From Bacteroidota bacterium (GTDB lineage: Bacteria > Bacteroidota > Bacteroidia > NS11-12g > UBA9320): a stretch of 64,000 nt of DNA. The stretch is from NCBI GenBank assembly GCA_013359235.1, contig JABWCE010000008.1, positions 1 to 64,000 of the forward strand, in the 5' to 3' direction. Positions within the stretch are counted from its first letter, which is position 1. Every line of letters begins with the position of its first letter. Made by a program: the position numbers and the translations under genes. A model generated the notes under the pieces. The model was not told where the DNA came from. It made no database searches and saw nothing but the letters and a program-made list of their open reading frames with translations. Positions 14,585 through 63,234 of this stretch are shown piece by piece.

Positions 14585-17515
14585 ATGAAAAAAATAAGAA
14601 TAATTTCACAGATTTTATTGCTGATATCAGCATTTTTTACAAATGACATCATTGCTCAAACAACAAGATTTCAAAGGATAATTGGCAGTTCGGGTGACGA
14701 ACGCAGTTACAGCATTGTTCAAACAAAAGACGGAGGTTATATACTAACAGGCTATACAAATGGAAACGGAGCAGGAGGCGATGATGCATATATTATAAAA
14801 ACTGACGGATTGGGCAAAGTAACTTGGCATAAAACTTATGGAACATCTGCCGACGAAGCAGCATGGAAAATAAAGCAAACAAGCGATTCGGGCTATGTTA
14901 TTGTTGGTACTTCATCAACCAAAAAAGGCGATGGAATAATTATTAAAACAGATATAAATGGTAATTTGAAATGGAGTAAAATTATAGATGAAGATAGTAC
15001 TCATGATATTTACAATGTAATAGAATCAAGAGTTGATGGGTCACTTTATATTACCGGATTTGTAAAAACCGATTCGTTTGGTTCTGATGCATTTCTTGGC
15101 AAACTATCATCTACAGGCAGTGTAGTTTGGTTTAAAAAATTTGGTAGCGAGGGCGACGAAGAAGGTTATGCCCTTGTTGAGGATATAGGTGGAAATATTG
15201 CCGTAACCGGAATGGTAATAAATGATACAATAACCGTTGGCGGAAAATTAGGAGCAATGGGAGATGAAGATTATTTTATCGCACAATTTGATAAAAACGG
15301 CAACAAAAAATGGATGAAAAATTTTGGTACTTCAGCTATTGACCAAGCATGGGATATAAAATCTTACAAAGGTTTTTATGTTACAACTGGTTGGGTAAAT
15401 TCAGGACCTGGAACTACTGATATTTTGGTATCGATAATTGATACAACAGGAAATTTATCTAATTCATTTTCATACAATGCAGGAGGTAGTTCAAAGGGAT
15501 TTTCAGTAATTATTAATCCCGACGAAACATATTCTGTAACAGGATATGTACAAACAACCGGAAAGGGTCGTGAAGTTTTTTACCTCAATACAGCTAAAAA
15601 CGGATTTATTAATCAGTTTTATTCTATGGGAGGCAATTCTACTGACGGGCACTGGCCAAGCGAGATTTTAAGAACTGCCGATGGTGGGTTTACAATATTT
15701 TCGGTAAGCAATTCTTTTAGAACAGGAAATTCTTATGATTTATATTTAATAAGATTAGACAATAAAGGCGTCAGCCAATGCAATCAGTCAACAATTTCGG
15801 GTATAAATTTTAATGCAAATATTCAATCCAGTGGCAAATTTGGGAATATCAGACATGGTTTGAGTATGAATAATGGAAATTTTACTACCAAAACAGTATC
15901 CGGCACATACGATTCTGTTTTATGCTGCAGGCTTCAGGCACAGGTAGCCGGACCAACTTTGAGAATTTGCAAGGGCGAAGGTATAAGAATTGGAAAACCT
16001 TCAATTCCGGGAATTGTATATAAATGGACAGAAGTTGGTGGAACATTCAGTTCAAGCGAATCAAGCCCACTTGTTTACCCTACTAAAACTAATACAACAT
16101 ATAAGCTTGTAGTTAGTTCGTCAGACGGAAAATGCTTGAAAGATTCAGCAAATATTACAGTAACAATAAGACCTGGAATTATGAGTAGTGATTTTGTAAA
16201 TGATACATTTTTCTGCCACAACGATTCAGTATTGGTAACAGCCCGTTCTGGGGCTATTGATTACTCGTGGAAAGGTAAGACAGGAACATGGAAGGGGCAG
16301 CAAATTAAAATTGGTGCCGAAGATAAAATAATTCTTACAATTACCGATACTACAACATGTTTGTACTACGATACATTTAATGTTACAAAAAAATACCTTC
16401 CTGTTTTTGAACTTGGCAAAGACACAACTATTTGCGATAATGCAAAATTAGAGCTTAAAGGACCTGCCAATATGAAAAGTTACATTTGGAATGGAGGCGA
16501 AGCATATACACGTTCAATATATGCAACCGACGAAAAAACTTATACTTTGTTGGCGATAGATAGCTTTGGTTGTAAATGGACTGATAGCAAAGTGATTTAT
16601 AACAACCCTTCGTCATCGTTTAGTCTTGGACCAGATACTTCAATCTGCGAAGGAATAAACTATACAATAAACGGACCTACATTTTTGATGAATTACTACT
16701 GGAACGGAGTTTCTACTTTTAACCCAAATAAAACTGTAAATACACCCGGAACGTACATTTGCCAGGCACAAAACAGTTTTGGATGTATTTGGATTGATAC
16801 TATTGTTTTGAAGAAAAAACCTGATCCAAATTTTAGTCTTGGTGCTGATGGTGGTGTTTGCGAAAACGGAGGCAGATTGCTCAAAGGTCCATCAGGAGTA
16901 GTATCGTATAAATGGGATGACGGCTCAACAGATTCAACTTATCAGGTATATTTTGCAGGTACATATTGGCTGCAGGTTACAGGAAAAAACGGTTGTATTT
17001 TCAGAGATACAATCAACCTTGTTAAAGTTTCAAATCCCAAACCGGAACTTGGCAAAGACACAACAATTTGCGAAAAAGATTCAATATATATTGATGCAGG
17101 AGTATTTAACTCATACAAATGGAGTACAGGCGAAACAACAAGAATAATTAAGGTAAAAAAAGCAGGGCTGTACGAAGTGATAGTTAGTGATATAAACCAA
17201 TGCGAAGGTAGTGACGATAAATCTGTAAAAACTAAATTCTGCATTGATGATGTTAGAAAAATTGTGTTAAATGATGCAATAAGAGTTTTTCCAAATCCGG
17301 CTCGCAATGTCTTAAATATAGAAGTAAAAGAAAATTTGCCTAATGGTAATTATTTAATAATTTACGATATTTACTCAAAAAAGGTGTTTGAAAAAGAATT
17401 GCCAGGAGGTAAAAATAATATAACCATTGATATAAATTCATGGTCAAAAGGTTTGTATTATTTAAAACTCTCATCATCACCATTGGGGCAATCTATAAAA
17501 ATATTAGTTGAGTAA
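14585..17515 (+). CDS. Large secreted T9SS cargo protein with repeat domains
   Basis: A 976-residue surface or secreted protein. A signal peptide (IISQILLLISAFFTNDIIAQ) leads to about six 50-60-residue repeats (residues 27-400) of the type DERSYSIVQTKDGGYILTGY, probably a beta-propeller. A beta-sandwich region follows with four roughly 70-residue repeats beginning ELGKDTTIC or similar near residues 608, 679, 749 and 820. The end, from about residue 900 (FPNPARNVLNIEV to SIKILVE), is a type A T9SS sorting domain, so export through the T9SS and cell-surface anchoring or release are expected. No catalytic motif is seen. The gld genes follow 61 bases downstream. Confidence 0.9.
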   Translation: MKKIRIISQILLLISAFFTNDIIAQTTRFQRIIGSSGDERSYSIVQTKDGGYILTGYTNGNGAGGDDAYIIKTDGLGKVTWHKTYGTSADEAAWKIKQTSDSGYVIVGTSSTKKGDGIIIKTDINGNLKWSKIIDEDSTHDIYNVIESRVDGSLYITGFVKTDSFGSDAFLGKLSSTGSVVWFKKFGSEGDEEGYALVEDIGGNIAVTGMVINDTITVGGKLGAMGDEDYFIAQFDKNGNKKWMKNFGTSAIDQAWDIKSYKGFYVTTGWVNSGPGTTDILVSIIDTTGNLSNSFSYNAGGSSKGFSVIINPDETYSVTGYVQTTGKGREVFYLNTAKNGFINQFYSMGGNSTDGHWPSEILRTADGGFTIFSVSNSFRTGNSYDLYLIRLDNKGVSQCNQSTISGINFNANIQSSGKFGNIRHGLSMNNGNFTTKTVSGTYDSVLCCRLQAQVAGPTLRICKGEGIRIGKPSIPGIVYKWTEVGGTFSSSESSPLVYPTKTNTTYKLVVSSSDGKCLKDSANITVTIRPGIMSSDFVNDTFFCHNDSVLVTARSGAIDYSWKGKTGTWKGQQIKIGAEDKIILTITDTTTCLYYDTFNVTKKYLPVFELGKDTTICDNAKLELKGPANMKSYIWNGGEAYTRSIYATDEKTYTLLAIDSFGCKWTDSKVIYNNPSSSFSLGPDTSICEGINYTINGPTFLMNYYWNGVSTFNPNKTVNTPGTYICQAQNSFGCIWIDTIVLKKKPDPNFSLGADGGVCENGGRLLKGPSGVVSYKWDDGSTDSTYQVYFAGTYWLQVTGKNGCIFRDTINLVKVSNPKPELGKDTTICEKDSIYIDAGVFNSYKWSTGETTRIIKVKKAGLYEVIVSDINQCEGSDDKSVKTKFCIDDVRKIVLNDAIRVFPNPARNVLNIEVKENLPNGNYLIIYDIYSKKVFEKELPGGKNNITIDINSWSKGLYYLKLSSSPLGQSIKILVE

Positions 17516-43946: not shown

Positions 43947-44378
43947 ATGAATTTTTTAATTCTTTTATTATTTGTATTCAGTGTAAATGCACTTTTGCTT
44001 TTTATTCATGTTTACTGGTTTTTGGGAGGTAATTTTGGGTTAGAATTTTCTAATTATACAATAAGAGTAAAAAATAAAAAATCAAAATCAATCAAAAGAA
44101 ACAAGATATTTATTATAGCAATTTTGCTTGCATTTATTTTTATAGTAAATTTAACACAGACAGGCATTAATAATATAAATGTAAACCCAAACTTAATGTT
44201 ATGGATAAATAGAATAATTTCATTAGGTTTTTTTTACCGTTCGGTTGGAAATTTTACAAGTTTTGGATTTACAAAATCAATTAGAAAAGGTCTTTATGCA
44301 TCATTAGATACATGGATTTATTCTCCTGTGTTTTTGCTTATGGCAGTGTGCCAAATATTGATTTCTATGAAAGATTAA
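43947..44378 (+). CDS. DUF3995 family membrane protein
   Basis: A 143-residue polytopic membrane protein. The N-terminal helix runs into FIHVYWFLGGNFGLEF, the hallmark of DUF3995, and three more hydrophobic segments follow, the last holding YSPVFLLMAVCQILI. Function unknown. Its TAA stop and that of the opposing LytTR gene share the palindrome TTAA, so there is no room for a terminator between the two genes. Confidence 0.8.
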   Translation: MNFLILLLFVFSVNALLLFIHVYWFLGGNFGLEFSNYTIRVKNKKSKSIKRNKIFIIAILLAFIFIVNLTQTGINNINVNPNLMLWINRIISLGFFYRSVGNFTSFGFTKSIRKGLYASLDTWIYSPVFLLMAVCQILISMKD

Positions 44379-45154
44379 TTGATGCTTTTCATTTTTTCTA
44401 AAAATTCTTTCTTATGCTGTCTTGATAATATTATTTCATCAAGATTTTTCATTCTTACAAAAAATGATGAATTATTTTTTTTTAATAAGTCTTTTACCTG
44501 ATTAAGGTTTACCAAGTAAGAACGATGAGTTCTGAAAAAATTCAAATTTTGAAGAATATTCTCAAAATAATTTGTGCTTTTTGAAACTAAAACTGATTTT
44601 TCATCATAAATTATCTTACTGTAAACTCTTTCAGCTTTCAGGTAAAAAATATTCGAAATATTAATAAAATAAGTTTTACCATGTGTATCAATTATCAATC
44701 TGCCGTTTGCTTCTATTACTTTGCTTTCGGGCTTTTGGTTATGTATTTCTGAAGTTTCAATTTCTGAAATATTTTTTTCACGGTTTAAAAAACGATTTAT
44801 AACATCTTCAACATGAAACTTGTCTATTGGTTTAATCAAATAATCAAATGCATGAATTTTAAAGGCTTTCAGAGCATAATTTTCATGAGCTGTAGTAAAT
44901 ACAACCTGAAATGTATATTGACCAATTTTTTCTAAAATTTCAAAACCATTTAAAAGTGGCATTTCAATATCTAAAAACAAAATATCTATTTCATATTTTG
45001 CAAGTTTTATTAATGCTTCGTTTGCATCTGATGATGTAAAAGTTATTTCAATTATATCATTTTTGTTTTCTAAAATCTTAGTAATTGCTGTTATACTGAA
45101 AACACTATCATCAATTATTGCAACTTTAATTTTTTTTGAAAAATCAGAACTCAT
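44375..45154 (-). CDS. LytTR-type response regulator
   Basis: A 259-residue two-component regulator. The receiver domain (about 8-125) has the acidic pair in AIIDDS, the phospho-acceptor aspartate in FLDIEMP (D62), the threonine in VVFTTAHE and the lysine in YLIKPID. The C-terminal LytTR DNA-binding domain (about 155-255) contains FLKAERVYSKIIYDEK and FFRTHRSYLVNLNQV. No histidine kinase is adjacent. The gene starts 32 bases after the PorP-like fusion gene on the same strand, so the two are probably cotranscribed. Confidence 0.92.
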   Translation of the reverse strand: MSSDFSKKIKVAIIDDSVFSITAITKILENKNDIIEITFTSSDANEALIKLAKYEIDILFLDIEMPLLNGFEILEKIGQYTFQVVFTTAHENYALKAFKIHAFDYLIKPIDKFHVEDVINRFLNREKNISEIETSEIHNQKPESKVIEANGRLIIDTHGKTYFINISNIFYLKAERVYSKIIYDEKSVLVSKSTNYFENILQNLNFFRTHRSYLVNLNQVKDLLKKNNSSFFVRMKNLDEIILSRQHKKEFLEKMKSIN

Positions 45155-45186: not shown

Positions 45187-47115
45187 TTATTTGTTTTTTG
45201 ATTCACGCCACATCCAAGGATTGCCTACTATATAGTCTTTTAGCCTTTTTTCTGTTAACCTGTTCATTTCAGCTTTTGCCTCATCCTTAGTGAATATTTT
45301 TTTAGTCCACACATAGTAGTAGTTTTGTGGTGTAACCAATACTTGTGTAGGTTCATCATAGGTTTTTAATAGATATTTTTGATAGTTTTTTAGATTGTTG
45401 TAATATCTGAAGGCACCTATTATTACATAATAATCCCAAATTTGTGAACTGTCTTCAATTTCATCTACATTTATTCGGTGTATCGAAGATGGATCTTGGC
45501 TTACGAGTGGGCTTCTTCCCCATTGGTCAACAACTGAACCTTTTGGAGTATTGGGTTCAAGATCTAAATCGTCAGAAATGCCATCGCCATCAGAATCTAC
45601 AACCTTTTCAATAATTATATCATCAGGTTTTACTATTGCAATCCCATTTTTATCTACTTTTGCTCCCGTCGGCGAGAAAATTTGACCATCAATACAATCT
45701 TTATAACCATCTTTGTCGCTGTCTTTGGCTACTCCCCATTCATCTACTATACATTTTGAGGCATTAATATTGTATTTTTCGCCAATATGTTGCCAGTGTG
45801 GTGTTTCAGGTTCGCGATCTTTTACGTCAGGCACGCCGTCTTTGTCTGTGTCAATTGCTGTACCGTTTTTATCAATTTTTGCACCGTGAATTGTATTTAC
45901 TTCTTTGTCAAAACAGTCTAAAATTCCATCATTATCACTATCAGAAGCTATTCCAAAATTATCTACAACGCACCCTTCAGGGGTATTAGCTTGCATATCA
46001 AACAGGTCAATTACTCCGTCGTGGTCTGTATCTAAAGCAATACCATGCGAATCAACAGTTGCTCCAGATGGTGTATTGGGTTGTTCATCAATTCCGTCTG
46101 CTACTTTATCATTGTCGCTGTCAAGTGCTACCCCATCGTTATTTACAACACTTCCTTTTACGCTTGCAGGTTCTTTATCAAACAAATCAGATACGCCATC
46201 TTTATCTCCATCATTTTTAAAACTTTTTCCTCCAAGGTCAAATCCAAAAAATATTTCATGAAAATTTCCTGTATTTTTCTTTTGTTGTATTGCAAATGTA
46301 TATCCTAATGAAATTTTATTGTAAAACTGCATTCCTGCCGAAAAATCGTATCCGTATAATTGGCGGTATCCACCACTTATCCATAGTTTTGATTTGTAAT
46401 ACGCAGCAGTATTAAAATCTAAATTTAATTTTGAATCAATGCTCTTTCTAGCTTGAAGTGTAGGTTCAATTTTGAAATTTTTGTTTTTTAGACAAAATAA
46501 ATATGAAACATTGCAAGCCAAATGTTTTTCAAATAAATATGCAAAATCGTCATAGTATTCTGAATTTACTTTTATTTGATTAGACTCTAAAAGACGATAT
46601 CCGGCAATGCCAATATTTAATCCATTTTTGTGAAGAGAAACTCCAAAATTACCATCAAAATCTGTAGTAGAATTTGATTTTTCTGCAAGTGTAATTTTTT
46701 GTGTTTTTTCAAGGTCAACCCTTTCTGTTATTAGCTTTGCTTGTTCATAACCAATTGAAAAACCAAATGCAAGCATACTTTTTTTATCAATTTGTACTTT
46801 GTAACTGTATGTACCGGTGATAGAGCTTCGTGAAAGTATGTCTCTTGAGTCGTTATAGGCTATAAACCCTATACCATCGCTACCATTTCTAAAATTTCCG
46901 TTGTATGATGCCAGAAAACTCTCAGTTTTATTAGTGTTTGCTTTCCAGTTGCTGCGGTTTAAAAGAAAAATTTTATTTCCGTTTAAACCTGCAAAAGCGG
47001 GATTTGAAAGATATGAATTGATAAAATAACTGCTTGTTGGTGGCAATTGTTGTGCTTCTGATTTTATTGAAAATATCAGCAGAGCCGAAGATATTAAAAG
47101 TGTAAAATTTCTCAT
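45187..47115 (-). CDS. PorP/SprF-type outer-membrane barrel fused to TSP3 repeats and a SPOR-like domain
   Basis: A 642-residue outer-membrane protein. After a signal peptide (LLISSALLIFSIKSEAQ), residues 24-300 form a PorP/SprF-type barrel; the family start SSYFINSYLSNPAFAG is clear. Residues 301-535 hold seven calcium-binding thrombospondin type 3 motifs such as DGDKDGVSDLFD and DSDGDGISDDLD, joined by NTPxGAxVDxxGIA linkers. Residues 556-640 resemble a SPOR domain (YYVIIGAFRYYNNLKNYQKYL to PWMW), which in other proteins binds peptidoglycan. PorP/SprF proteins work with the T9SS or gliding machinery. A role linking such a barrel to the cell wall is my inference. Confidence 0.85.
   Translation of the reverse strand: MRNFTLLISSALLIFSIKSEAQQLPPTSSYFINSYLSNPAFAGLNGNKIFLLNRSNWKANTNKTESFLASYNGNFRNGSDGIGFIAYNDSRDILSRSSITGTYSYKVQIDKKSMLAFGFSIGYEQAKLITERVDLEKTQKITLAEKSNSTTDFDGNFGVSLHKNGLNIGIAGYRLLESNQIKVNSEYYDDFAYLFEKHLACNVSYLFCLKNKNFKIEPTLQARKSIDSKLNLDFNTAAYYKSKLWISGGYRQLYGYDFSAGMQFYNKISLGYTFAIQQKKNTGNFHEIFFGFDLGGKSFKNDGDKDGVSDLFDKEPASVKGSVVNNDGVALDSDNDKVADGIDEQPNTPSGATVDSHGIALDTDHDGVIDLFDMQANTPEGCVVDNFGIASDSDNDGILDCFDKEVNTIHGAKIDKNGTAIDTDKDGVPDVKDREPETPHWQHIGEKYNINASKCIVDEWGVAKDSDKDGYKDCIDGQIFSPTGAKVDKNGIAIVKPDDIIIEKVVDSDGDGISDDLDLEPNTPKGSVVDQWGRSPLVSQDPSSIHRINVDEIEDSSQIWDYYVIIGAFRYYNNLKNYQKYLLKTYDEPTQVLVTPQNYYYVWTKKIFTKDEAKAEMNRLTEKRLKDYIVGNPWMWRESKNK
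45510..46215 (-). repeat. Thrombospondin type 3 repeat array inside the PorP-like gene
   Basis: Seven units of about 30-40 codons, each with a D-x-D-x-D-G-x-x-D core: DGDKDGVSD, DSDNDKVAD, DTDHDGVID, DSDNDGILD, DTDKDGVPD, DSDKDGYKD and DSDGDGISD. One unit carries an insertion with WQHIGEKYNINASKC. The array is a protein-level repeat with diverged DNA. Confidence 0.85.
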
Positions 47116-47360: not shown

Positions 47361-48644
47361 TTATTGAATAATGAATTTTTGACTTAGAGCTTTTTGGTTT
47401 TCATAAAAAACTTTTATATAATATACCCCCGATGATAGTGTTTCACAATTGAATTTGTATCTGAAATTATCTGAAATTGAAAAGTTTTGTTCTACTATTG
47501 GTTGACCAACTATATTTGTTATTTTTATTAAATAATTTCCTTTTTTATCAAGATTTACATTCAAAAAACTACTTGCAGGGTTGGGGTTTATGTTTACAAA
47601 TTCTGAAGCAGGAATTGAATTATCAATACTTGTTGTGCCTACTTCGGGTCTTAAATTTACCAAATTCCATCGCATTTGGTTTGCTTGTTCTTTTGAAAAC
47701 ATAACGGTACAAGGGTAAGGAGTATAATCCATATAGTTTTCATACATATCAGGTTTGTCGCCACTGCCTTCGTAACATGAATTTTTATTTGCTACACAAT
47801 TTGAACTTGCAATACTGCAAAACGGGGTGTCTTTAAATCCATCATCATCACCATTACAAGTTTTATTTTTATCAGCCCATATATGTCTTAACCCAAGATA
47901 ATGCCCTATTTCGTGAACAAGTGTTTTTTCGCGAATTGAAGAGCTTAATCCATCGTAGGGATTTTTTACACCTACAAACTGATAATTTATTACCACACCA
48001 TGAAGGTCAATGTCTTTGTAAAATTGTGAATTCCAAAATTTGGCATTTATAGGGGGAAAACCATAGGCTGCCGTAAGTAAATAACCTTGATAAGTGAAAC
48101 GACAAACCCAAATATTCAGATATTTGTTTGGGTTCCAGGCATCACTACCACCTTCCGAAGTAAATTTTACTGATTCAGCTTGACCGAAATTATCGCCAAA
48201 ATCTGATTTTTTTGTTTTTACTCTGTTAATTCCGTTGGTTGGCTTTCCTTCCGGGTCTTTTTTGGCAAGGTAAAATACAATTCTTGCATTACCAACTACA
48301 GGTTTAAAAACACTTCTTACTTTGCCTGTGTCTTTGTGGTTGTGATTATAAGCTTCGTTTAATGCTTTTATTTGTGAATATATCAAAGAATCATGAATAT
48401 TCAATTCAGGAGTGTTCCATAAAATATGAAAAACTACGGGTATGTAATATATAGTTTGGTCATCAGCTTTATAAAGAAGTTTTGATGATTTGTGTGATTC
48501 TTCCCTTGTTTTATCTAATGCTTCGCCAAAACCAGGAAATTTTTTTTTCAAATAGTTTTCATATTCGTAAGTTCCGCATTGTGCTTGCAAAAAACTGCTG
48601 TAAGAAGTAAAAAGTAATGTTAAAATTATTATTTTATTTTTCAT
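47361..48644 (-). CDS. M43 (pappalysin/cytophagalysin) metalloprotease with T9SS sorting domain
   Basis: A 427-residue secreted zinc protease. A signal peptide (IIILTLLFTSYSSFLQAQ) leads to the catalytic domain with the metzincin zinc motif HEIGHYLGLRH (H244, H248, H254) and a Met-turn near YENYMDYTPYPC. Several cysteines (CNGDDDGFKDTPFC, CVANKNSC) fit the M43B disulfides. Residues 350-427 form a type A T9SS sorting domain (NINPNPASSFLNVNL), so it is exported through the T9SS. Its ATG directly follows the stop of the enoyl-CoA hydratase gene (TAAATG), which places it in the rpoN unit. Confidence 0.93.
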   Translation of the reverse strand: MKNKIIILTLLFTSYSSFLQAQCGTYEYENYLKKKFPGFGEALDKTREESHKSSKLLYKADDQTIYYIPVVFHILWNTPELNIHDSLIYSQIKALNEAYNHNHKDTGKVRSVFKPVVGNARIVFYLAKKDPEGKPTNGINRVKTKKSDFGDNFGQAESVKFTSEGGSDAWNPNKYLNIWVCRFTYQGYLLTAAYGFPPINAKFWNSQFYKDIDLHGVVINYQFVGVKNPYDGLSSSIREKTLVHEIGHYLGLRHIWADKNKTCNGDDDGFKDTPFCSIASSNCVANKNSCYEGSGDKPDMYENYMDYTPYPCTVMFSKEQANQMRWNLVNLRPEVGTTSIDNSIPASEFVNINPNPASSFLNVNLDKKGNYLIKITNIVGQPIVEQNFSISDNFRYKFNCETLSSGVYYIKVFYENQKALSQKFIIQ

Positions 48645-60840: not shown

Positions 60841-63234
60841 TCAATCTGCTATTTTTATAATTTTAGTTCTGTATTTTTTGCAATTATGTGTAACTTCAAT
60901 AAAATATATACCATTATGCAAAATGCTTAAATCTATAATTTCGGTTTTGGGGTTAAAAGATTTACTTTGATATATAATTTTACCTATATTGTTTGATAAT
61001 GTAAGCAATATTGGTTTTTCAAAATTGGGTTTATTAATTTTTACATAGTTTTTTGCAGGGTTAGGAAAAGCTATAATAGTATTATTGTTATTTATAATTT
61101 CAATAATTTTATTAGTAAATTTACTCTCTTTTGCCCCTATATCAGGGCTTTTGCCATTAAAATCGTAAAAACCTTTAATTTCTATGCCAGCATCTATCAA
61201 CGGACTATTGTATTCCAATTCAAAACCTCCTGTTTTTTTGTCTTTAAACATAGGATTCAATTGGGTAGCTTTTCCGATGAAAATATATGGACTACCAGAA
61301 ATACTGCTTAAAGTACTTTGTATATCGTCCACTTTGTCTATTTCAGTACAATTGTATTGACCATTAATGTGCTTAGCCACTATTATAGGCGAATTGGGGT
61401 TATACGAAAAGTAGTTTTCATTTATTGATGAAATTTGAAAATCACTATTAGTTTGAACACTTGCCAGATTACAATAAAAAAAAGGAAAACTTTTTGAGTG
61501 AGAATAAGAATTGTTTATAAATAAGGCTTTTCGCCATTCTGCATACCATGATGTAAATACAAAACCAAGTGTATCGTCAGAGTGAAATGTATTGTTAAAA
61601 AAATACAAATTGCCTTCGGGCACATTTTCCATATAGGTTGAGTTCGTTTTAATTCCTACTCCTTGCCCATTATAAACGTTGTTTACCGGCTGGCAACCTA
61701 TAAAATACGGATCGTCTTTTTCATTTCTTCGTCCTTGCATTCCATGTATTAGGTTTTTGTAAAAGTAACGTGGACCATAATACGGTGGAGCAGCAGATAT
61801 ACCAGCCATTGGGCGTATTATTTCATTTCCCCAAACTCTTAAATTTGACCAGTAGCCATCGCATTCTATCGCATCAAAATTATCTACAAATACATTGTTA
61901 TTTATGTCTATTTCTTCATTAAACCCATAAGAAATATAGCTTTCTAAACCTGAATTTAGTCCATCAAAATAATTGTTTTTTATTACTACTTGTTTGCTCG
62001 AATTTAGAAATATAGCCGATGTTTCAATGCCTCTGCCTCTTGACGATGAAATAGTATGCAAAATAGTATGAACAAAAATATTTGCTTTTTTAATCATTGC
62101 ATGTGTCCATTTGCCAACTTCGTTTTTAAAATAAGAATTTTGAATGGTTAAATAATTGCACTGGCTATTAAATGCAATATCGCTTGTATTGTTTATAAAA
62201 TAACAACTGTCAAAATAAACATGATGTACGTTTCTCAGGTCAAAAACCATTGCAAGATATGCATCATTTGTATTGCCTAATTCATTTAAAACAGGTTTGC
62301 CGAAATTTTTAAATTTTATACCTTTAATTTTCAAATAAGCATTGTTGTTTTTACCGTAAACTGTTAAAAACCTGAACGAGTTTGAAACAGTAACAATAGA
62401 ATCATTAGGGTTTATACCTTTATGAGTTTTTATCCAAATTGTATTTTCATCTCTTACAAAACCATCATATCCAAAACTCAAGTTTCTTAAATTGTAGTTA
62501 CCCAACAATATTTCAGCGTTTAGCGAAGGGTAGGGGTATATTGAAGTGCTGCCAAGTACGCAAATGTTTGAATGGCGGGCATTTGAAGGTATTGTTGTGT
62601 AGTAGAGATTTGAGTCAGTTTGTGTTTGCACCCATTTTGTAGTGATTACCATACCTCCGTCAAAAATTGGTTTGCTGTTAGGTGCAGCAATTATTACAAT
62701 AGGTGTATTTTCGGTGCAACTATTATTAATATTCAATTGCAAATCGTTAGTTGAGTAAGTGCCATCAGTAAGGTATATGGTTGTTCCACAAATTACTTTA
62801 CCCGAAGTGAATAAATTTTTTAAATTTCCGGGATTTTCTTTTGTGTAATCACCATTCCCATTTGGCGAAACCCATTTAATATCAGAAGTTGGGGTAAATG
62901 TTGTTAATGCCCAAGTTTTCTGATTTAAAACTTCAAGTTCTTTGCTATTAGAATTATTAAATAATGTTATTTTTATTTCATAGCTTGTGTTTGCCTCAAG
63001 CAACATAATACTTCCTCTGAATTGTTTTTCATTAGAAATTGTAATTGTATCGGGCTGAAACCCAAGCAACCATTCTGATTCTGATTGTTTTTTGTATTCA
63101 ATTTGGCAACTGTCGTAATTGCCAATTTCACTTATTTTTATTCCAATAGAATTATAAGTTGGAAAAAGCTCTGTTTTTTGAGCTTTTAAATAGGCAGTAG
63201 CAAAAAGTAAAATAAATAGAACTAAAGGTTTCAT
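60841..63234 (-). CDS. Secreted right-handed beta-helix protein with T9SS sorting domain
   Basis: A 797-residue exported protein. A signal peptide (KPLVLFILLFATAYLKAQ) is followed by a fibronectin-like segment, then GNGDYTKENPGNLKNLF, the usual entrance to a parallel beta-helix. Repeated NNTSDIAFNSQCNYLTIQNSYFKN and NNYFDGLNSGLESY motifs run through residues about 130-650. This is the scaffold of polysaccharide lyases and related enzymes, but I see no certain catalytic set. The end (FPNPAKNYVKINK to RTKIIKI) is a type A T9SS sorting domain. It probably shares a transcript with the zinc-ribbon gene 12 bases upstream and the esterase downstream. Confidence 0.88.
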   Translation of the reverse strand: MKPLVLFILLFATAYLKAQKTELFPTYNSIGIKISEIGNYDSCQIEYKKQSESEWLLGFQPDTITISNEKQFRGSIMLLEANTSYEIKITLFNNSNSKELEVLNQKTWALTTFTPTSDIKWVSPNGNGDYTKENPGNLKNLFTSGKVICGTTIYLTDGTYSTNDLQLNINNSCTENTPIVIIAAPNSKPIFDGGMVITTKWVQTQTDSNLYYTTIPSNARHSNICVLGSTSIYPYPSLNAEILLGNYNLRNLSFGYDGFVRDENTIWIKTHKGINPNDSIVTVSNSFRFLTVYGKNNNAYLKIKGIKFKNFGKPVLNELGNTNDAYLAMVFDLRNVHHVYFDSCYFINNTSDIAFNSQCNYLTIQNSYFKNEVGKWTHAMIKKANIFVHTILHTISSSRGRGIETSAIFLNSSKQVVIKNNYFDGLNSGLESYISYGFNEEIDINNNVFVDNFDAIECDGYWSNLRVWGNEIIRPMAGISAAPPYYGPRYFYKNLIHGMQGRRNEKDDPYFIGCQPVNNVYNGQGVGIKTNSTYMENVPEGNLYFFNNTFHSDDTLGFVFTSWYAEWRKALFINNSYSHSKSFPFFYCNLASVQTNSDFQISSINENYFSYNPNSPIIVAKHINGQYNCTEIDKVDDIQSTLSSISGSPYIFIGKATQLNPMFKDKKTGGFELEYNSPLIDAGIEIKGFYDFNGKSPDIGAKESKFTNKIIEIINNNNTIIAFPNPAKNYVKINKPNFEKPILLTLSNNIGKIIYQSKSFNPKTEIIDLSILHNGIYFIEVTHNCKKYRTKIIKIAD

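Follow-up and report, generated by a model that had tools for sequence, protein, structure and literature searches.

How Bacteroidota choose among moving, fixing and releasing the surface proteins of type IX secretion is a question that one gene in the window (the whole 64,000-nucleotide stretch of contig JABWCE010000008.1 that was analysed) raises for a carrier barrel that continues, in a single chain, into a repeat stalk and a SPOR domain. The initial annotation had described one continuous frame with a PorP/SprF-type barrel, seven TSP3 repeats with DxDxDG calcium motifs and a SPOR-like C-terminal segment. Its coordinates (45187..47115) were correct and the 642-residue ORF runs without interruption, with the strand, which had been left unstated, being the minus strand (47115 to 45187); the plus strand of the same interval, in the frame opening at its first position, has stops throughout. 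Of the description as a whole, the barrel, the seven DxDxD motifs and the SPOR domain stood, and the assignment to TSP_3 and the strand needed correction.

Barrel, stalk and SPOR domain of the encoded protein

A putative signal peptide (47053..47115, minus strand; residues about 1-21, around the stretch KSEAQQ, with a cleavage site predicted from sequence) opens the chain, and AQQ at residues 21-23 was invariant in the 11 orthologues. It is followed by the barrel (46237..47049, minus strand; residues 23-293), which was assigned with confidence to the PorP/SprF family by a match to PF11751 over residues 20-292 (E 4.3e-44; 151.5 bits against a cut-off of 22.3) and by TIGR03519, the curated PorP family of the type IX secretion system (T9SS), at 148.6 bits against a cut-off of 90.55. 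The full-length predicted model has 14 barrel strands, at a modest mean pLDDT of 70.7, and the nearest fold in the PDB to the predicted barrel was 8gl6_F, from a substrate-bound T9SS complex with the RemA CTD; we take chain F to be the PorV shuttle. PDB sequence searches, both with the single protein and with a profile, gave nothing meaningful. As the number of strands is even and the chain begins with a signal peptide, its start and its end are both expected in the periplasm, and as the repeats begin about nine residues past the last strand, the stalk and the SPOR domain are expected there too. From the architecture, both barrel termini, the stalk and the SPOR domain should thus be periplasmic; an outward-facing repeat region had been named in the initial annotation as evidence against its reading. 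No cysteine was found in the segment just after the barrel in any of the 11 orthologues, which therefore have no Cys-x-Cys tail of the SprF type.

The stalk (45511..46212, minus strand; residues 302-535) consists of seven DxDxD repeats, at residues 302, 332, 362, 392, 422, 465 and 507, mostly spaced by 30 residues, with the 30-residue unit DxDxDGVxDxxDxxPxTPxGxxVDxxGxA. Shuffling the protein sequence 10,000 times gave 0.10 motifs on average, three at most and never seven. The count of seven in the initial annotation was upheld. The Pfam TSP_3 profile (PF02412) scored 13.5 bits, under its own gathering cut-off of 25, and we therefore name the repeats TSP3-like. The Asp ligand positions were invariant across the 11 orthologues, and the number of repeats was seven in the window's genus and eight in related genera. 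Calcium binding by the stalk, and its stiffness, we only infer. The cysteines of the stalk are paired at a spacing of 19 residues (382/401 and 455/474 in the window protein), and a further pair, the first, was missing as a pair only in the window and its closest relative, G001, being present in the other nine orthologues; the pairing suggests, from sequence, that disulfides may form within the stalk across neighbouring repeats. The genome also encodes an OprF-like protein (L105) in which a stalk of three TSP3 repeats precedes an OmpA domain.

The C-terminal segment (45190..45438, minus strand; residues 560-642) is a real but divergent SPOR domain, judging by its orthologues and by its predicted fold. 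PF05036 scored 17.9 when the whole protein was scanned, below the gathering score of 21, and rose above it when the C-terminal 108 residues were scanned alone (22.0) and in the genome search (22.1); the SPOR-like call of the initial annotation thus survived the profile search by which it could have failed. The orthologous C-termini matched SPOR in nine cases of nine (best 3e-6), and hhalign against six other SPOR domains from these genomes gave 96.4% (E 1.4e-9). The predicted fold (AF2; pLDDT 85) is b1-a1-b2-b3-a2-b4, for which Foldseek returned CwlC first and DamX second among PDB matches, with the SPOR domains of RlpA and FtsN lower. The domain closes with the invariant motif IVGNPW[LM]W[KR]E. 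In the SPOR domains of RlpA and FtsN, a conserved Gln and Arg contact the glycan. On comparison with PMC6895207, the canonical Gln is absent from the window protein, with Ile/Val there, and the canonical Arg position is a Tyr. The Gln position was hydrophobic in all PorP-linked SPOR domains aligned, and a stand-alone SPOR protein encoded in the same genome, L037, kept the canonical Gln. As the conserved glycan-contact residues are replaced, wall binding is not assured, and to judge by these residues it may be weak or absent.

Distribution and relatives of the fusion

The full architecture was found in ten other genomes, four of them from the window's genus and the remaining six from two further genera of one family, as full-length orthologues at 39-75% identity, which rules out an assembly artefact. 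When 84,980 species genomes were scanned, the same ten loci were recovered and, at the sensitivity of the scan, no others. All carriers of the full architecture are metagenome-assembled Bacteroidota, and most of the order lacks the gene. In the barrel tree the PorP-TSP3-SPOR barrels form one clade (100/99), with a long branch for the window and G001. All three domains are under purifying selection: between the window and G001, crude dN/dS was 0.19 (0.186) in the barrel, 0.07 in the stalk repeats and 0.02 (0.024) in SPOR. In several pairs synonymous sites were close to saturation. In the sister genera, barrel and SPOR are conserved to the same degree, the barrel at 81-98% identity. Two members of the window's genus, G002 and G005, encode at the same locus only a signal peptide, a linker and SPOR, with the barrel and stalk gone (L019:555-1205 and L094:2495-3277, respectively). 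The barrel-less proteins, together with a fast barrel and a constrained SPOR domain, suggest that the protein may be losing its role as a carrier in this genus, with its SPOR part still of use.

Joining of PorP to OmpA or SPOR recurs, as PorP-coiled-coil-OmpA, PorP-TSP3-OmpA, PorP-SPOR and PorP-coiled-coil-SPOR, so the window gene is not a unique oddity; two more such fusions are encoded in this very genome. Its four other PorP proteins are a PorP-coiled-coil-OmpA (C39), a PorP-linker-SPOR (C37) and two plain ones, with the OmpA and the SPOR fusion each directly downstream of a type B gene. Across 31 genomes of the family, 37 of the 115 PorP proteins above the cut-off had open frames of 430 residues or more, where plain PorP has about 300-375. 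For other families, long frames were fetched from a 148-genome sample of the phylum and comprised PorP-TSP3-OmpA (L071, L074), PorP-SPOR (L073) and PorP-coiled-coil-SPOR (L075), with SPOR-like C-terminal sequence under the Pfam cut-off in L070, L072 and L076. L071 and L074, from G094 of another family, occupy a branch of their own in the barrel tree. In the PorP proteins L079-L083 (660-690 aa), which adjoin type B genes, a very long, charged coiled coil precedes a divergent SPOR-like end. Where the genes upstream of fusions were scanned, a type B sorting domain was present in ten of ten, nine over the curated cut-off and the one beside L070 below it.

A search of mainly open-access literature found no description of PorP or SprF fused to OmpA or SPOR, which agrees with the remark in the initial annotation that no system of this exact architecture was known. 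The window gene belongs to a wider, apparently undescribed set of fused carriers, which seem to keep surface proteins in place and not to travel with the gliding machinery. Its main value lies in this membership of a recurrent set, whose natural PorP-OmpA/SPOR fusions provide independent support, of the Rosetta-stone type, for a link between PorP and the wall.

Neighbouring genes and the role of the window protein

The upstream gene (47361..48644, minus strand) encodes an M43 metalloprotease that has a type A T9SS sorting domain and is no type B client; it is the neighbour throughout the genus. The orthologues of the sister genera are encoded directly downstream of a type B gene. Other type A sorting-domain proteins are encoded in the window at 14585-17515 and 60841-63234. 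Downstream, 32 bp past the stop, lies a LytTR response regulator (44375..45154, minus strand), a neighbour present only in the window and G001; as it is confined to these two, an operon with the regulator was not counted as evidence. The genome has 23 type B sorting domains over the cut-off, as well as SprA, and two of its five PorP proteins adjoin a type B gene, leaving many orphan type B substrates. When the type B partner of the sister genera was queried in the window's genus, only general PKD/CTD similarity was found and no dedicated orthologue stood out, with the best matches adjoining the other PorP fusions, and a CTD comparison based on incomplete extraction of the CTDs gave no clear client. 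For the window's genus, an orphan type B protein is the probable client.

Type B proteins stay bound to PorP-like carriers (PMC9143113). The reading that we favour, with moderate confidence, is that the window protein acts as a carrier for type B substrates and bears its wall anchor in cis, which would make it a fused counterpart of the published static PorP-PorE complex and the opposite of SprF. It draws on the architecture, the barrel family, the SPOR fold, conservation in 11 species, the type B neighbour in the sister genera and the recurrence of fusions with OmpA, and from these we infer that the protein would bind a substrate, peptidoglycan and calcium and be immobile. The barrel would accept a type B substrate handed over by the SprA translocon and remain attached to that substrate as its surface anchor; the last strand would run straight into the TSP3-like stalk and SPOR, in place of an SprF-type Cys-x-Cys hook to GldK; and the SPOR domain would hold peptidoglycan, by which the attached surface protein may be fixed in place. 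With a wall module where the Cys-x-Cys would be, a static anchor in one chain is the simplest reading. Against the carrier reading stand the type A neighbour, the partner search in which no dedicated type B orthologue stood out, the loss of the barrel in G002 and G005, the fast barrel and the altered SPOR contacts.

Alternatively, in the window's genus the protein may be mainly a tether from outer membrane to wall like OprF/OmpA, its barrel now just a membrane anchor and its function resting on SPOR, perhaps at the division site, with carriage of substrates lost or fading. We regard this as possible although rather unlikely. It would fit the lack of an adjoining type B gene in this genus, the two proteins that kept SPOR at the same locus after losing barrel and stalk, a SPOR domain that is the most constrained segment (0.024 against 0.186 for the barrel), the long barrel branch of the window and G001, and the OprF-like protein with its three-repeat stalk in the same genome. 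The barrel is, however, still an intact family member under purifying selection, in the sister genera the type B neighbour is retained and the barrel well conserved, and orphan type B substrates are known to share one non-adjacent carrier, as three of them do in Flavobacterium johnsoniae (PMC12618676).

A less probable alternative, which we consider doubtful, accepts a carrier and changes its anchor: the SPOR-like domain would dock not to glycan but to a protein (the track, the GldK/GldN ring or the divisome), making the carrier mobile or machine-bound. The replaced Gln and Arg, the hydrophobic Gln position in all aligned PorP-linked SPOR domains and the invariant extra tail IVGNPWLWKE are consistent with such docking. 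Many contacts in the RlpA complex are nevertheless made by the backbone, and the contact Phe is retained (PMC6895207); in addition, paralogous carriers have at the same position OmpA, a proven wall binder in PorE.

That the protein is a core T9SS part replacing both PorE and PorP in this lineage, as domain logic might suggest, is highly improbable and was rejected, as the gene is missing from most of the order and the genome has both a short PorP adjoining a GldK-type gene, likely the canonical PorP, and a separate PorE-type protein (TPR-PD40-OmpA). The proposal in the initial annotation that the fusion combines PorP and PorE-like roles accordingly holds in part: there is one chain and the PorP-PorE parallel is apt, but the core PorP and the PorE-type protein are separately present, which leaves carrier and anchor for a type B substrate as the best role for the window protein.

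Fused carriers and known systems

Among the type B substrates of F. johnsoniae, some travel with the gliding machinery and one at least, Fjoh_3952, is static; for the latter, anchoring was proposed via a PorE homologue encoded beside its carrier (PMC12618676). SprF is linked to GldK by a disulfide through an invariant Cys-x-Cys in its tail, a motif that is required for movement; without it, most SprB is nearly stationary yet still exported (PMC12635249). A broader and speculative proposal, to which we attach a low probability, is that interchangeable periplasmic tails set the fate of PorP/SprF cargo, with Cys-x-Cys leading to the track, OmpA to the wall and SPOR to denuded glycan at the septum or new pole, so that the window protein and its relatives would display type B surface proteins specifically at the division site. 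The PorP fusions are one-gene test objects, by which static and mobile anchoring are made testable.

Like PorP-PorE-PG1035 of Porphyromonas gingivalis and Fjoh_3952/3951/3950 of F. johnsoniae, in which a PorP-type carrier of a type B substrate is wall-linked and proposed to be static (PMC9143113, PMC12618676), the window protein combines a carrier barrel with a wall-type module; in those systems, however, the wall binder is a separate outer-membrane-associated PorE with TPR, propeller and OmpA, whereas in the window protein, in which a domain scan found no TPR, PD40 propeller or OmpA, the module is fused to the barrel via the TSP3-like stalk and is SPOR, not OmpA. With SprF-SprB it shares a PorP/SprF barrel and a periplasmic C-terminal extension that would decide the fate of the bound surface protein, but the tail of SprF is short and bonded through its Cys-x-Cys, by a disulfide, to GldK of the moving track (PMC12635249), and this is absent here. 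OprF/OmpA-type porins with TSP3 linkers, such as L105, likewise place periplasmic TSP3-type repeats between a barrel and a wall-binding end domain, although their end domain is OmpA, their barrel belongs to another family and they have no T9SS link. The same modular idea is found in the PorP-coiled-coil-OmpA, PorP-TSP3-OmpA and PorP-SPOR proteins L001, L071, L074, L005, L021 and L073, with a type B gene upstream where scanned (L001, L005, L021 and L073); in these the linker, the wall module or both differ, and the combination of a TSP3-like stalk with SPOR occurs only in the window's clade.
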